A DNA stretch of 44,040 nucleotides. Source: Flavobacteriales bacterium. GTDB lineage: Bacteria; Bacteroidota; Bacteroidia; Flavobacteriales_D; Crocinitomicaceae. This document shows, piece by piece, positions 183 to 6,971 of this stretch. Location of the stretch: the NCBI GenBank assembly GCA_947491305.1, contig CANLIL010000017.1:1-44040 (forward strand), read 5' to 3'. Every line of letters starts with the position of its first letter. Position 1 is the stretch's first letter. A model generated the notes under the pieces. It saw nothing but the letters and a program-made list of their open reading frames with translations. It was not told the DNA's origin and did not search any database. The position numbers were made by a program, and so were the translations under genes.

Positions 183-222
183 CTCTCTCGCTACAAAGGA
201 AAGCCCAGTTTAACGACTGGGC
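183..222 (+). repeat. Direct repeat copy 2 (tRNA tail remnant)
   Basis: This is a perfect 40-base copy of 96-135. Just upstream, 153-164 matches tRNA bases 79-90 at 11 of 12 positions, so the duplicated part starts before the T arm and was then altered by about 13 extra bases in the T-loop region (165-182, a hairpin). It has no 5' acceptor, D arm or anticodon arm, so it is not a functional tRNA. Confidence 0.9.
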
Positions 223-229
223 TTTTTTG
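203..229 (+). terminator. Second copy of the tRNA terminator
   Basis: The stem GCCCAGT/ACTGGGC (203-209 and 216-222) is followed by six T residues. It would terminate any read-through from the tRNA. On the other strand the same bases contain the last codons and the stop codon of the cry-DASH gene (stop at 210-212). Confidence 0.75.
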
Positions 230-1511
230 TTAACCACAATTCCCGATAAGCTCCGTTTTTATCGTAATCGTTAGCTTGCTTTACGCAATTAAATGCCCTC
301 GTTCCTCTTGGATCGTTTCCAACGCCTGCAAGATAGGCCCAATTCCCCCAATTGCTACACACATCGTAATCAACAAGTTGTTCTTCGAAGTAACGAGCGC
401 CAATGCGCCAATCCAACTTCAAGTCATGGCAAAAGTAACTGGCAACATTTTGGCGACCCCGATTACTCATAAAACCAGTTAATTTCAATTCAATCATATT
501 GGCATCAACAAAATCTTGACCTGTTGTACCATTGATCCATTTTTCAATTAACTCCAGATTTGAACCTGTTGTTAGCGGTTTGTCTTGAAAACCATTTTTT
601 AAGAAAAATGAAGTTTGGTATTTTTTAAACATGAAACGAAAATAATCGCGCCACAACAATTCAAAATACAACCAATAGGTCGATTCATTGGCTGTAAACA
701 TTTTTTCGTACAGTTTTAATTGGTCGTAAATATACCGTGGTGAAATACAACCTAATGCCAACCATGCAGAGAATTTTGAAGAATAATCTGGTCCAATTAA
801 TCCGTTTCTTGTTGTTTTGTAGCTGGCAATGGCATGACTTTCTTCAAAATAATGTTTCAAACGTTGAAGTGCTGCTGTTTCTCCTCCTTTGAACACCAAT
901 GCTGCTCGTTCATCTTGTATCACTTCTTGTGCATTCAATTGATGCAAAGAGGGCAATTTCGTTGAAGGTAAAGTCGGAGATTTTATAGAAACAGGCGCTT
1001 CAAATACAGCGCGAATTTGCGATTCTTTTTCAACTTTCTTTCGAAACGAAGTAAACATATCTGGAATGTCACGAATGGAAAAAGGTAAATCGGAGGCGTT
1101 GTAAAGCGTGCTTGTACTGTACGATTTTAATTCGCATTTGTTTTTCCATAGCGCATTTTCAACCAAGGTAGCTGTTGCTTTTTCTTCATAAGCGACTTCT
1201 TTTTTGGCATAAACCTGATGAACATTGTATGCTTGTGCCAATTTTGGCAATTCAATTTCTGGTTTCCCAAATACAATCAATAAATTCGATCCTTTTTTTT
1301 GTAAATTCTCTTGTAAATCCCTCACGGCTTCATGGATGAACTGCGTTCTAAAATCACCTGTTTTTCTGAATCCACCTGTTGTTTTTTGAAAATGTTGCTC
1401 ATCGAAACAATACACAGGAATAACTTGGTCATTTTGTGCAATGGCTTTTACAAGTGTTTCATTGTCGTGCAAACGTAAATCTGTTTTAAACCAAATAATT
1501 GCTGTTTTCAT
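210..1511 (-). CDS. DASH-family cryptochrome
   Basis: A 433-aa protein of the cryptochrome/photolyase superfamily: N-terminal Rossmann-like antenna domain (about 1-130, starting with WFKTDLRLHDN) and C-terminal helical FAD domain. DASH signatures are clear: YKTTRNGLIGPDYSSKFS (231-248), LLWRDYFRF (285-293), MSNRGRQNVAS (348-358) and SNWGNW (386-391), which keeps the FAD-proximal Asn and Trp. DASH proteins bind FAD and MTHF and repair cyclobutane dimers mainly in single-stranded DNA; this is family knowledge. The start ATG overlaps the upstream DUF2256 stop (ATGA), implying translational coupling. The last residues (PSR) and stop lie inside the duplicated tRNA terminator. It is the last gene of a four-gene cluster. 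Confidence 0.95.
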   Translation of the reverse strand: MKTAIIWFKTDLRLHDNETLVKAIAQNDQVIPVYCFDEQHFQKTTGGFRKTGDFRTQFIHEAVRDLQENLQKKGSNLLIVFGKPEIELPKLAQAYNVHQVYAKKEVAYEEKATATLVENALWKNKCELKSYSTSTLYNASDLPFSIRDIPDMFTSFRKKVEKESQIRAVFEAPVSIKSPTLPSTKLPSLHQLNAQEVIQDERAALVFKGGETAALQRLKHYFEESHAIASYKTTRNGLIGPDYSSKFSAWLALGCISPRYIYDQLKLYEKMFTANESTYWLYFELLWRDYFRFMFKKYQTSFFLKNGFQDKPLTTGSNLELIEKWINGTTGQDFVDANMIELKLTGFMSNRGRQNVASYFCHDLKLDWRIGARYFEEQLVDYDVCSNWGNWAYLAGVGNDPRGTRAFNCVKQANDYDKNGAYRELWLTKKPSR

Positions 1512-1630
1512 AACTCGTTAATGTGATTTAAATAATGTTCTGCTTTTTCCCACTTTTTGCGCCAACTGAAAGGTCGTTCACACACGATACAGATTTTACT
1601 AGGTAAATGTTGTTTTTTCACTCCTTTCAT
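1508..1630 (-). CDS. Truncated DUF2256 family protein
   Basis: A 40-aa open frame lies between the two photolyase-family genes, overlapping each by ATGA (ATG 1630-1628; stop TGA 1510-1508). The translation contains [20 protein letters not shown], the hallmark N-terminal half of DUF2256 (a small zinc-knuckle-like family commonly found beside cryptochrome genes). Family members continue from WEK into a second cysteine pair of the type WDEVKYCSxxC; here the sequence turns into [11 protein letters not shown] and ends, so only CxxC 14-17 remains. None of the three frames after WEK restores the missing half, so this looks like loss or replacement rather than a simple frameshift. Whether it still folds is unknown; conserved coupling suggests it is translated. 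Confidence 0.8.
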
Positions 1631-3111
1631 ACTTTTTTTACTTTTGCTGGTCTAACATGTGTTTTAAGTATGCGAGCGCCTTCAACTTTTACAGAAGCTT
1701 GTTTGCGGTACTTCCATACAATTTCACTGGCATATTTTCTAGTTTCATCAATGTCAACTATAGGAAAGGGATAATCTTTTCCAATTTCACACCCATATAG
1801 TTGTTGATCCATCCACGTTAATTTCCAAGGTTCATGAATGAGGTGCGGTGGAATTTCAGTTAATTCAGGTAACCATTTTTTGATAAAAATTGCTTCCGAA
1901 TCATGGTCTTCCGAATTTTTGATTGGGTTGTAAATACGAATGGTATTAATTCCAGTAACTCCCGCTTGCATTTGCAATTGTGGGTAATGAATTCCTGGTT
2001 CATAGTCTAAAAATTGGCGGGCTAAAAAATGTAAATCGCGCCAATCTTGCCACAAGTTGAAGACAAAGAAGGAAACCACCATTGCACGCATGCGAAAATT
2101 AATATAACCTGTTTCTTTTAAACAACGCATGCACGCATCTACAATTGGAACGCCCGTTTGACCTGTTTGCCAAGCTTTAATGTATGCTTCGTTTCTGTTT
2201 TTTGGTAATTGATCGTAGGCACGGTTGACATTTTCAAATTCCATTCGACATTCGCTTTCAAACTTCTGAATAAAGTGACAATGCCAATGCAAACGAGAAA
2301 CGAAATTTGCCAATGCACGTTTGTTACTAGCTGTTTGATAGTGTTTTAACGTTTGTTGGTACACCATGCGCATGCTGATATTTCCGTATGCGATGTAAGG
2401 CGATAAACGACTGCATCCGGTTCTACTTAGCGCAGGTTTTGAAATGTGTTTGCTGTAATTGACCGATCGATTTGTAAGGAAACTGTTCAAATAACGCCAA
2501 GCCAATGATTCTCCTCCTTGTTGAAAATTTGGATTGCGTTCTTGAAGTTCAGCTGGTAAATCGGAACCTTTTAGAAGTTTGTAAATTGATTCTTCAAGAC
2601 GAACGAATTCCGTGTTTTGAACTGAAAACGAAACGGGATTGGAAGTCATTTTATGTTTCCACAAAGCATCCCAATTTTCACGCGATTTTAACTTGCGAAT
2701 CACACCATTGGTTTGACTTTCGCACCAATTAATCTGTTGGTTGCGGAAAAACTTCCCTACTGTAATATCGCGTTGAAACGTCAATTGATTGCCTGTTTCT
2801 TGGTGAGAAAAAACAGATTTTAGAGTAAAAAGTTGCGACAGTTGCTCGAATACAAACAATGCTTCTTGGTGAAAAACGTGAATTGTAGCTTGAATTTCAA
2901 GTTGGTGCAATTGATTTTGTAAATCTTGAATAGATTCGTAAACAAAGCGCCAATGACGCACATCAGAATCATCGTAATTTAGAATGCTTGGTTCAAAACA
3001 ATAGATCAATAAAATTGGCAATTTCTCTTGTTGCGCTGCCCACAATGCTTCATTGTCTTGCAAACGCAAATCTCGTTTAAACCAAACAATATTGATGGCA
3101 GTTTTAGTCAT
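1627..3111 (-). CDS. Divergent cryptochrome/photolyase family protein
   Basis: A 494-aa protein with the photolyase fold: antenna-type N domain ([17 protein letters not shown], 7-23) and an FAD domain with [13 protein letters not shown] (234-246), [17 protein letters not shown] (313-329), DWR (356-358) and IYNP (393-396). Compared from memory with E. coli photolyase, the segment for LIDGD..NNGGWQW reads [14 protein letters not shown] (369-382): the FAD-proximal Asn378 and Trp382 are not present, and no Trp is found in the Trp306 stretch (285-312). Trp359 appears as W357. It is therefore unlikely to use the classical Trp triad. The ATG overlaps the flavin reductase stop by 8 bases and its own stop overlaps the DUF2256 start. 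Confidence 0.9.
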
Positions 3112-3751
3112 TCTTTAAAATCGAAGTAACTGATAAATTTGGTTTTGCGTAACTCAATCTATCCAATTGTTGGGTTGAATGATAACTGTCTAATCCAGAG
3201 CACGTGATGCAATCGCTGGCTGATAAATCAACAAATCCATCTTCTTTTAAAAATTTTTCGGGAATATGAATGTGCGTAATTTCACCAATAATCATCGTTG
3301 TATTGTTTAAGTGAATTTCAAGTTTATCTCGAAATTCAACACCTAATTGAATGGTGCTTTCCTTCACAAAAGGCGCTTGAAATGCTTCTTTGTATTCAGG
3401 TGTTAAGCCAACTTCTGTAAATTCAGAAATTCCAGCATCATAACGTGCTGAAGTTTGGTGCGCTTGTTTATAAAAAGATGAATTAATGTGATTTATGGTG
3501 TAAAATCCTGTTTCTAAAATATTTTTGTAGGTATCACGTTCAGGCGGACTCGGTCTAAAAATCAATCCAACCAGCGGAGGATGCGCGCCAATATGCACCA
3601 ATGAACTAAAGATTGCTAAATTTTCTGCTTGCTCATTTTTAGTCCCCACCAACACAACACTTTTAAAACCGCCAATACTGTTGATTAAATTGATTCTTTT
3701 TTGTTTTTCAAATGCCTCAATTCCATTGGCGTTAATAAAAAGTTTGTTCAT
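3104..3751 (-). CDS. Flavin reductase family protein
   Basis: An FMN-binding split-barrel protein of about 215 aa ([19 protein letters not shown] start). The frame stays open upstream to 3808, but the residues before this Met do not resemble the family, so 3751 is preferred. Recognisable features are [17 protein letters not shown] near the N-terminus, the segment around [16 protein letters not shown] and [10 protein letters not shown], typical of the flavin_reduct domain. Such proteins bind FMN and reduce flavins or act as partner oxidoreductases. Its stop overlaps the photolyase-like gene by 8 bases, so it is the promoter-proximal gene of a four-gene unit. A role in supplying reduced flavin to the two photolyase-family enzymes is plausible but is inference. 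Confidence 0.85.
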
Positions 3752-4688: not shown

Positions 4689-5801
4689 TTAATGGCCAAA
4701 TTGGCGTTTTAATTCTTGTTCTAACGCTTCTCCACGTAAATTGGTTTGAATAATTTTCCCTTCTTTGTCTAACAACGCAGTGAATGGAATTCCTTTTACT
4801 TGGTACAATTGTCCGACTTTACTTTGCCATTGTTTTAAATCACTCACATGATTGGGCCAAGTTAAATTGTCTTTTTGAATGGCAGCTTCCCACGCATTTT
4901 TGTCTTTGTCCAACGAAACACTCATCACTGTAAAACCATCATTTTTGTATTTTTCATACAAACGAACAACGTTCGGATTTTCTTTGCGGCAAGGTCCACA
5001 CCACGAAGCCCAAAAATCCAACAATACAATTTTACCGCGTAAATCAGATAATTTCATGGTTGTTTTACCGTCTAGTTTCAATTCTTCAAAGTCTGGAGCA
5101 ACTTTACCTGGCGCTATTAAATTTGCAGCTTCTTTTTGAGCTTTTAGTTGTGTTAGTTGACGCATTAATTCTTTTACAGAATTTGATTCAGGAAAACTAA
5201 CATTTAGCTGACTAACAATCGATTCAAACGATGCGAAATCATTTTCTTTATCAATAACACTGATAATGGGCATCAAAGCTGCAGAGTTTTGATTTTGACT
5301 CGCAAATGCTTGTAAATCACGTTGAAAATTAGAATATGCTCCTTGCATTGAATTGTTGATTTCTTCTTGTTTTTCTGGTGTTGCTTGCATGATTCGAACA
5401 GCTGAATCTCTTTTAGCATTCCAAACAGATAATACTTTGATGAAATTATTCATGTTTGCTGTTTCATCCGAACCTACAATGTTTGAAAATTCAGCAATTT
5501 TTGACGCATCACCGTATACTTTGATGTTTGAATTGTTACGTAAAATCAAGTTTACATGGTTCGTGCCAACTTTTAAAACATAGTAATCAGCTGCAGGTAA
5601 ATTCGCATTTATTTCAAAAACACCTTTTTTACTCAACTTTGCTTTGGCAAAATCGACATAATGTGTACCATAAAATTGTGCAATACTAACGGAATCAGCG
5701 TTCACATTGAAAAGTTCTCCCGAAACAGAAACTTTTATTGGTGCTTGCGCAAAAAGTGCAGTCGAAATAATAAGTTGAATGAATAAGCTAAAACTACGCA
5801 T
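4689..5801 (-). CDS. TlpA-type thioredoxin-fold protein with DUF4369-like N domain (copy 1)
   Basis: A 370-aa exported protein: signal peptide about 1-19 (ending ALFAQA), a beta-rich DUF4369-like N domain (about 20-110), a helical linker and a C-terminal thioredoxin/TlpA domain (about 230-370) with WASWCGPC, cysteines 268 and 271. Such proteins are periplasmic thiol-disulfide reductases. It has no lipobox, unlike its neighbour. The thioredoxin domain is very similar to that of the adjacent upstream gene (for example ENPNVVR and WPNHVSDLK in both), so the pair arose by tandem duplication. The gap to the upstream copy is 3 bases, so they are co-transcribed. The substrate is unknown. Confidence 0.88.
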   Translation of the reverse strand: MRSFSLFIQLIISTALFAQAPIKVSVSGELFNVNADSVSIAQFYGTHYVDFAKAKLSKKGVFEINANLPAADYYVLKVGTNHVNLILRNNSNIKVYGDASKIAEFSNIVGSDETANMNNFIKVLSVWNAKRDSAVRIMQATPEKQEEINNSMQGAYSNFQRDLQAFASQNQNSAALMPIISVIDKENDFASFESIVSQLNVSFPESNSVKELMRQLTQLKAQKEAANLIAPGKVAPDFEELKLDGKTTMKLSDLRGKIVLLDFWASWCGPCRKENPNVVRLYEKYKNDGFTVMSVSLDKDKNAWEAAIQKDNLTWPNHVSDLKQWQSKVGQLYQVKGIPFTALLDKEGKIIQTNLRGEALEQELKRQFGH

Positions 5802-5804
5802 AAT

Positions 5805-6971
5805 TTAATTTTTTAAAAGTTCTTCTAATTTTTGTTCCAATGCTTCACCTCTTAATCCAGTGGCAATAATTTTCCCATCTTTTCCAATTAAAACTGTGTG
5901 TGGAATGCCATCAAATTGATAGGTTTGCACCAACGGTGTTTTCCAACCTTTTAGATCACTTACGTGGTTAGGCCATACCAATCCATCCATTACAATGGCT
6001 TGTTTCCATGCTGTTTGATCTTCATCTAAAGAAACAGAATAAACCGTAAAACCTTTGTTCTTATATTTCTTATACATACGAACGACATTCGGGTTTTCTC
6101 CGCGACACGGTCTGCACCATGAAGCCCAAAAATCAAGCAATACAATCGATCCTCGCAACGAAGAAAGTTTAATTATTTTTCCTGAAGGAGAAGGTAATGC
6201 AATTTCTGGTGCTAAAATAGCGGAAGCAACTCCTGTTGAATTTTTAAATTCATTGTAAGCATTATTGATTTGAAAAACTTGATTTTCCAATGTTTGAACA
6301 ATCGGATTGTTTTGAAATCTTTTATTCAATGCAAGCGAAACTTCGTGTAAAACCGAAATATTTTCAGGATCCCAATTGTCAAAACCCATTGCAGGAGTAG
6401 CAGAAGTGGATAAAATAATATTAAATGAATTACCTGGATTTTTCTTCATTTCTGCAATTGAAAAATCATCTAAAGGCTTTTTTATTGATTGAAAAATAGC
6501 TGCAATTTCACTATCGCTCATATCTGAAGATGCTGCTTGCATTTCGCGTTGGTCAGAAGCAAATTGCAACATGATTGGCATATATGCATTCAAAGTTTTT
6601 GTCCAAGAAGCTCCTGATGCATTTGGTTTTTCTAAAAAATCTTGAAAAGAAGTTGTAAGTGTAATGTGTTCTTTTGGAGCAATGGTAAAGGGAATAATTT
6701 TGTCTGGAGATTCTCCCAAACGCAATTGATAAATTCCAAATCCAGGAATATTCCCTTTCATTAAAAATTTTCCACCACCTTGAATGATTGTTTTTGCTAC
6801 TTCAATAGTTCCTTTTTGACTGAATGCTTCCAAGTACAACGTTGCTTGATCCGCTTGTGAAATTGTTCCACTAATGGTGAAATTGTCTTCTAGTTGCGCT
6901 TCAGGTGTTGTTTTCGATTGACAAGCTGTCAAAACGACCAATAGAAAAAAGAAATAGCTTAACTTTTTCAT
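5805..6971 (-). CDS. TlpA-type thioredoxin-fold lipoprotein with DUF4369-like N domain (copy 2)
   Basis: A 388-aa lipoprotein: signal peptide with lipobox LTAC (Cys17), a DUF4369-like N domain (about 30-115), a helical middle and a TlpA/thioredoxin domain (about 250-388). The active site is WASWCRPC with cysteines 286 and 289; the CRPC dipeptide differs from CGPC in the neighbouring copy and may alter redox potential (inference). It probably acts at a periplasm-facing membrane as a thiol-disulfide oxidoreductase. The start overlaps the gatB stop (ATGA), and copy 1 begins 3 bases after its stop. Confidence 0.88.
   Translation of the reverse strand: MKKLSYFFFLLVVLTACQSKTTPEAQLEDNFTISGTISQADQATLYLEAFSQKGTIEVAKTIIQGGGKFLMKGNIPGFGIYQLRLGESPDKIIPFTIAPKEHITLTTSFQDFLEKPNASGASWTKTLNAYMPIMLQFASDQREMQAASSDMSDSEIAAIFQSIKKPLDDFSIAEMKKNPGNSFNIILSTSATPAMGFDNWDPENISVLHEVSLALNKRFQNNPIVQTLENQVFQINNAYNEFKNSTGVASAILAPEIALPSPSGKIIKLSSLRGSIVLLDFWASWCRPCRGENPNVVRMYKKYKNKGFTVYSVSLDEDQTAWKQAIVMDGLVWPNHVSDLKGWKTPLVQTYQFDGIPHTVLIGKDGKIIATGLRGEALEQKLEELLKN

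Follow-up and report, generated by a model that had tools for sequence, protein, structure and literature searches.

The window analysed here, a stretch of 44,040 nucleotides from a bacterium of the Flavobacteriales, carries on its minus strand (1627..3111) an open reading frame of 494 amino acids, P0001, in which an earlier note made from the letters had recognised a photolyase homologue short of canonical tryptophans. The question raised by this locus is whether such a protein is a damaged copy of a familiar enzyme or one of a separate kind with a function of its own. It clearly belongs to the photolyase/cryptochrome superfamily, with PF00875 (E 9.9e-20) followed by PF03441 (E 1.1e-66) in the Pfam search and with a predicted photolyase fold. 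The AF2 model, made from 59 sequences, has a pLDDT of 91.9 and a pTM of 0.89, and the solved structures that Foldseek ranks closest to it are those of photolyases and cryptochromes (6kii, 4u63 and mouse CRY2). VIA-align, which is a re-examination of Foldseek's own matches and in which fold likeness says nothing on function, put 2e0i (Z 37.8, with 420 residues aligned at rmsd 2.4) and 1np7 (Z 37.0) jointly first. P0001 falls short of every NCBIfam cut-off; its highest score is 165.9 bits, where 506 would be required.

Residues are numbered after E. coli K-12 PhrB as in the literature, where each number is the full-length number minus 1. In the MAFFT alignment of P0001 with PhrB, Asn378, which faces N5 of the flavin, is replaced by His375 (codon 1987..1989, minus strand, like all codons given here; coordinates counted from the ORF start at 3111). 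The proximal triad residue Trp382 is replaced by Leu379 (1975..1977) and Trp384 by Met381, the middle triad residue Trp359 is kept as Trp357 (2041..2043), and Trp306 has no Trp counterpart, residues 285-312 containing none at all. The absence of Asn378 and Trp382, the Trp-less stretch around position 306 and the surviving Trp357 had all been proposed in the earlier note and are borne out by the alignment. The register holds beyond one program, since Leu379 also falls on the proximal Trp, with no gap, in a profile alignment of P0001 to PDB 2e0i. An alignment slip masking Trp382 was considered and rejected on account of this ungapped alignment and of the relatives described below, where Trp stands at that position in 0/113 and 0/17 members. 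The loss of Trp306 alone tells little, since the adjacent CRY-DASH lacks it as well.

Among the residues that we take to form the FAD scaffold, Y222, S238, R344 and D372 are kept in P0001 while T234 and D374 are changed, as is N378, and FAD binding is a prediction. Another tryptophan, Trp354 (2050..2052), stands three residues before Trp357 in the alignment, as Trp381, the fourth Trp of Drosophila (6-4) photolyase, stands before Trp384. This fourth-Trp position is filled in 108/131 members of the group although the first and third Trp are absent. According to PMC9008703, the N5-side residue sets flavin protonation and is Asn in photolyases, Asp in plant cryptochromes and Cys in fly cryptochrome; in Drosophila (6-4) photolyase, the same paper states, a hydrogen bond links the N5-side Asn to the chain's first Trp, and a joint change at 378 and 382 therefore makes sense. 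With His fixed at N5 and the Trp behind it gone, the flavin has different surroundings. The suggestion of unusual electron transfer made from P0001 alone is supported at the level of sequence, the proximal donor being missing in every member read.

A pseudogene or a sequencing error can be rejected as the origin of such changes. The reading frame is without stops, and dN/dS is 0.058 (NG86) against the homologue in the nearest relative, G016, which is 95% identical, and 0.098 and 0.100 against those in G025 and G002, respectively. P0001 is under purifying selection, as the value of 0.058 demonstrates.

Relatives were collected from three sources. Among 60 related genomes, own genome included, 32 gave a match at E <= 1e-60; from GTDB contigs the best 80 of 590 confirmed stretches were taken; and 197 plasmid records matched, mostly with other photolyases, 18 of the 60 listed being examined. 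Removal of near-copies, with the window's own gene included and with a Nostoc homologue that keeps Trp382 (L123) and a fragment from the window (L003) excluded, gave a set of 114 members. His occupies position 378 in 113/113 readable members and Trp occupies 382 in none, the remaining member ending before this region. E274R, N341F and M345A are each present in 114/114, and Trp306 in a single one. A second sample from the Bacteroidota agrees, with His378 in 17/17, Trp382 in 0/17 and Trp306 in 1/17; at position 345 Ser replaces Ala in 2/17 and the other pocket positions are the same. The gene was found in 56/395 sampled Bacteroidota genomes (E <= 1e-90, own genome included), and ten phage records yielded only other photolyases at ~29% identity. 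A shortened member of the group lies on an Enterobacter kobei plasmid (L134 4076-4747), flanked by IS1 and IS1182 transposase genes. P0001 is thus one of a widespread and conserved group, not a single odd gene.

A tree of the FAD domain was built from 44 rows, a selection that lies outside the plant cryptochrome, class II and FeS-BCP groups, and in which several reference rows are long-branched and the deeper forks tentative. All 28 His378 rows fall on one side of a branch with support of 100/99, which supports the separate branch that the earlier note had suspected. The clade unites Bacteroidota with Vibrio, Salinivibrio, Pseudoalteromonas, Duffyella, Novosphingobium, Pseudorhodobacter and Deinococcus. 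It is joined, again at 100/99, by homologues from Nostoc, Halotia and Halobaculum as the nearest outgroup, that is, cyanobacteria and one haloarchaeon (L123 4010-5554; L136 3004-4551; L128 1417-3003). The Sulfolobus tokodaii photolyase 2e0i is placed beside the clade with support of 89/75, and the clade does not group with the class III enzyme PhrA of A. tumefaciens (4u63), although class III is itself held together weakly (66/32). Apparently the clade is undescribed: neither a description of it nor one of His at the N5 position was found in the open-licence literature searched, and nothing found there would make it a known subfamily with proven repair, a possibility that had been allowed for when P0001 was first noticed. 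PMC1839093, PMC9178010 and PMC9346374, among that literature, did not bear on the clade.

The changes are not confined to the flavin. Alignment with PhrB shows the lesion pocket of P0001 altered by E274R (Arg273, 2293..2295), N341F (Phe339, 2095..2097), M345A at the lesion-recognition position (Ala343, 2083..2085), W384M at the lesion-binding position (Met381, 1969..1971) and R226I, and retaining W277, W316, R342, R344 and D372. Two positions that tell substrates apart are given in PMC7560933 as M/W in CPD photolyases, H/W in (6-4) photolyases, Q/Y in DASH and V/Y in plant cryptochromes; if these are equated with PhrB 345 and 384, a mapping made in the present analysis, P0001 is A/M. In the same protein a Cys/His pattern, C233-H277-C278-H279-C327-C330 (C233, WHCHF and CxxC), was noted. 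It is complete in 100/131 members, including those from Vibrio and Salinivibrio, and incomplete in the Deinococcus, Novosphingobium, Duffyella, Pseudoalteromonas and Pseudorhodobacter rows; residues 233, 277-279, 327 and 330 are possibly a metal or redox site.

On the minus strand of the window the gene order is flavin reductase-like, P0001, a DUF2256 remnant and CRY-DASH, with successive genes overlapping by a few bases. The flavin-reductase-like frame (PF01613; 3104..3808, minus strand) overlaps P0001 by 8 bases, and its start is more likely the inner ATG near 3751, which fits the 215 aa homologue in G016. The DUF2256 gene is shortened to 40 aa (1508..1630, minus strand), matches positions 1-25 of the 40 in PF10013 and overlaps the end of P0001 and the start of CRY-DASH by 4 bases each. 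CRY-DASH (210..1511, minus strand) reaches 559.5 bits with TIGR02765, whose cut-off is 317.05. A blastn comparison with G016 places the junction of a deletion of ~1.78 kb at 1543..1549 on the same strand, the ends overlapping by 7 bases; relative to G016 the deletion took a photolyase gene of the PF04244 ((6-4)-type) group along with the last part of DUF2256. In G016 this PF04244 photolyase is itself split in two frames (L143 2720-4584). A canonical photolyase with the full triad is encoded elsewhere in the genome of the window (contig C22). In the window itself, two tandem thioredoxin-domain (AhpC/TSA-type) proteins are encoded further upstream on the minus strand (window 4689-6971), on the far side of an LpxH-like gene.

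Similar company is found in relatives. In several the order is flavin reductase, P0001-type, DUF2256, PF04244 photolyase and CRY-DASH, and an alternative order runs DUF2805, short photolyase, P0001-type and PF04244 photolyase; these orders come from 9 of 10 loci picked for nearby photolyase matches, and not all genes are present at each locus. Pfam confirmed five PF04244 proteins there, one of them a fragment. Of the 40 loci in the first sample that extend 4.5 kb to either side of the gene, 25 have a CRY-DASH within reach. A flavin reductase lay immediately upstream in 32/103 loci and adjacent on either side in 36/94. In Vibrio pelagius the flavin reductase is downstream of the gene. Among the 17 second-sample loci, with flanks of 1.5 kb, a flavin reductase was adjacent to the gene in none (0/17), which weakens the flavin reductase as a general electron donor; nor did the gene sit among other photolyases there. 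Around six plasmid copies outside the Bacteroidota (Salinivibrio, Vibrio pelagius, two from Deinococcus, Duffyella and Pseudoalteromonas) no second photolyase is annotated within ~4 kb on each side in the PLSDB tables, which are incomplete. These observations suggest that the photolyase island and the reductase are traits of some lineages and not of the clade. Some relatives encode a protein of ~370 residues immediately upstream (L141 4039-5157; L148 4841-5956). The one at L141, of 372 aa, has only FAD_binding_7 above the cut-off and may be a NewPHL-type photolyase.

Co-occurrence was assessed in the 60 relatives, own genome included, with photolyase classes hand-sorted by E-value and frame length and with Fisher tests that ignore kinship. 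Genomes with the P0001-type gene carry a PF04244 photolyase more often than those without it (26/32 versus 10/28, p 0.0005, kinship ignored), and likewise a CRY-DASH or short FAD_binding_7 photolyase (28/32 versus 8/28, p 4e-6, kinship again ignored). Canonical class I photolyase is independent of the gene (28/32 versus 25/28, p 1.0, with the same disregard of kinship), and P0001 therefore looks like an added enzyme and not a replacement. Four genomes with the gene lack a canonical class I match: G019 and G022, at 75 and 79% completeness, and G016 and G027, each at 98%. The last two, being near-complete, count against a purely added role.

An indication of function comes from Deinococcus. On plasmids of D. 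proteolyticus (L119 3992-6265) and D. aetherius (L135 4010-6331), the two examined of seven matching Deinococcus plasmid records, single ORFs of 757 and 773 codons combine PF00875 and PF03441 with a uracil-DNA glycosylase (UDG) domain. Dimers that contain C deaminate to uracil, and their splitting leaves uracil in DNA, which a glycosylase on the same chain would take out; the fusion suggests lesions of this sort, e.g. deaminated C-containing dimers. Together with the photolyase company in the Bacteroidota and the kept DNA-side residues, the fusion favours a repair enzyme. The most likely reading, to which we give about even chances, is that P0001 is a flavoenzyme of light-driven DNA repair whose substrate site has changed and whose FAD is reduced without the Trp triad. 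The proposal in the earlier note of a signalling or other-chemistry branch is supported in part: the branch is separate, but the UDG fusion, the neighbouring photolyases in the Bacteroidota and the retention of W277, R342, R344 and D372 point to repair at a changed lesion site rather than to its loss or to signalling. Counting against repair are the changed M345 and W384, which are tied to CPD recognition and whose alteration would fit a non-repair protein too, and the loss of the recognised CPD and (6-4) residues.

DNA repair by photolyase requires reduced flavin. Since the proximal Trp is absent, reduced FAD should come from cellular reductants, and FADH- would be made by these and not via the Trp382-Trp359-Trp306 chain; in the lineage of the window the overlapping flavin reductase perhaps supplies the reduction. 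His375 in place of Asn might aid protonation or hydrogen bonding at N5. Excited FADH- would then pass an electron to a flipped-out base lesion, which may be held by the retained Trp276 and Arg340 beside the new Arg273, Phe339, Ala343 and Met381. This lesion is probably not the one acted on by the class I CPD photolyase, (6-4)-type photolyase or CRY-DASH that accompany the gene in relatives. Two papers bear on flavin reduction: a mutation slowing photoactivation of a plant (6-4) photolyase lowered cell survival (PMC8948257), and for cryptochromes there is dispute over whether FAD in the cell is reduced without light (PMC12723161).

The same changes could be read as those of a blue-light photoreceptor or regulator, in which His375 would tune the redox properties of the flavin and the light state would be signalled without any DNA repair. 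The changed lesion-recognition positions agree with this, as does the presence in the cell of a canonical photolyase and a CRY-DASH, and in plant and fly cryptochromes the N5 residue is not Asn either. We nevertheless regard a photoreceptor as unlikely, given that no output domain was found in the 494 aa of P0001, that the usual radical-pair route is gone with the proximal Trp and that a fusion to uracil-DNA glycosylase exists.

A small chance is also given to an ordinary CPD photolyase, or one of broad pyrimidine-dimer specificity, whose FAD stays reduced in the cell and for which the triad is dispensable. Triad mutants of E. coli photolyase reportedly still repair in vivo (work of Kavakli and Sancar in 2004), the fold and FAD domain of P0001 are intact in the prediction, W277, R342, R344 and D372 are kept, and G016 and G027, both 98% complete, hold the gene together with CRY-DASH and no canonical class I match. 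R273, F339 and H375 are, however, fixed rather than drifting in the members read, and a canonical enzyme is already present in 28 of the 32 genomes with the gene.

Another chain of Trp or Tyr might photoreduce the FAD, by way of W357 and W354 with a longer first hop or by way of Y/W336 (PhrB W338). W357 is present in 129/131 and W354 in 108/131 members, and an aromatic residue (Tyr, Trp or Phe) occupies position 336 in 131/131. However, W354 is absent in Vibrio, Salinivibrio and others, and position 379 is Leu or Ile in 89/113, which leaves the first hop mostly without an aromatic bridge. The primary donor in E. coli is reported to be Trp382 (a study by Byrdin in 2003), and we find such a replacement chain distinctly improbable. 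It is very improbable indeed that P0001 is a flavoprotein that binds DNA or RNA without any photochemistry, or that it acts as a redox protein through WHCHF and CxxC, since the Cys/His pattern, though whole in 100/131 members, is broken in the Deinococcus, Novosphingobium, Duffyella, Pseudoalteromonas and Pseudorhodobacter rows and since another photolyase is near the gene in 9/9 loci, these having been selected for that.

Returning to the light-driven repair enzyme, one may speculate further, with low expectations, that the clade represents a further kind of photolyase, acting on a lesion poorly handled by the CPD, (6-4) and single-strand enzymes, with His at N5 and with flavin reduced enzymatically or chemically and not by light. 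Candidate lesions would then be Dewar isomers or deaminated dimers with uracil in them, the latter to be handed on, in the Deinococcus fusion, to its uracil-DNA glycosylase. Flavin photoreduction in photolyases is usually described with the Trp triad and the N5 Asn as core features, and a widespread clade that has fixed other residues at these positions offers a direct test of what each is for. Its occurrence in genomes already equipped with other photolyases and the UDG fusion suggest a substrate of light repair that is not yet assigned.

Compared with known systems, P0001 fits none of the named classes tested. With the class I CPD photolyases, E. coli PhrB and A. nidulans Phr, it has in common the fold, the order of the two domains, the scaffold of the FAD domain and the residues W277, W316, W359, R342, R344 and D372; it differs from them in lacking W382, W306 and W384 and in having N378H, E274R, N341F, M345A and R226I. 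Only W359 of the class I triad is present, and Met345, Trp384, Glu274 and Asn378 of that class are Ala, Met, Arg and His. Scores with the class I models lie well under their cut-offs (NF007955, 165.9 against 506 bits; TIGR03556, 148.7 against 884.6). CRY-DASH resembles P0001 in the absence of W306 from the window copy, but three DASH rows have Gln345, Tyr384, Asn378 and Trp382, where P0001 has Ala and Met in place of Gln and Tyr, and its score with TIGR02765 is 148 against 317.05 bits. P0001 is separated from plant cryptochromes by 145 against 603.85 bits (TIGR02766) and by His, not Asp, at N5; from eukaryotic (6-4) photolyases and animal cryptochromes by Ala in place of the active-site His at 345; and from class II CPD photolyases by 62 against 550.05 bits with TIGR00591 (phr2), which we take to be the model of that class. 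The prokaryotic (6-4) photolyases FeS-BCP (PF04244) stand beside the P0001 type in many relatives, and Pfam finds no PF04244 match in P0001. NewPHL and short photolyases differ from P0001, which opens with the usual N-terminal PF00875.

Groups from the literature were considered as well. According to PMC9649867, the PhrSph98-type bifunctional CPD/(6-4) photolyases occur in Bacteroidetes among others; they are not the clade, since that paper describes a model based on a class II structure and a kept, named Trp/Tyr/Phe chain. Nor is the uncharacterised CPF-related family of Great Lakes nitrifiers, in which PMC9239080 describes a FAD domain with an unrecognised region C-terminal to it. No group that can be matched to the clade stands in the list of clusters given by a 2024 review (PMC11362059), and the marine cyanobacterial Phr1-Phr8 (PMC9426592) were considered as a possible equivalent of the Nostoc-like sister group.

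The closest structure, the Sulfolobus tokodaii photolyase 2e0i, is 28% identical to P0001 and aligns without gaps over 378-384, but unlike P0001 it keeps W382, W384, N378, E274 and M345. The homologues of Nostoc, Halotia and Halobaculum share E274R, N341F, M345A and the change of R226 to I/L with the clade and differ from it in retaining Trp382 and in having Asn or Asp as residue 378, the N5 residue of Nostoc being Asp as in plant cryptochromes. Most simply read, these sequences would mean that remodelling of the pocket preceded the joint loss of Asn378 and Trp382, which would fall on the branch leading to the His clade.
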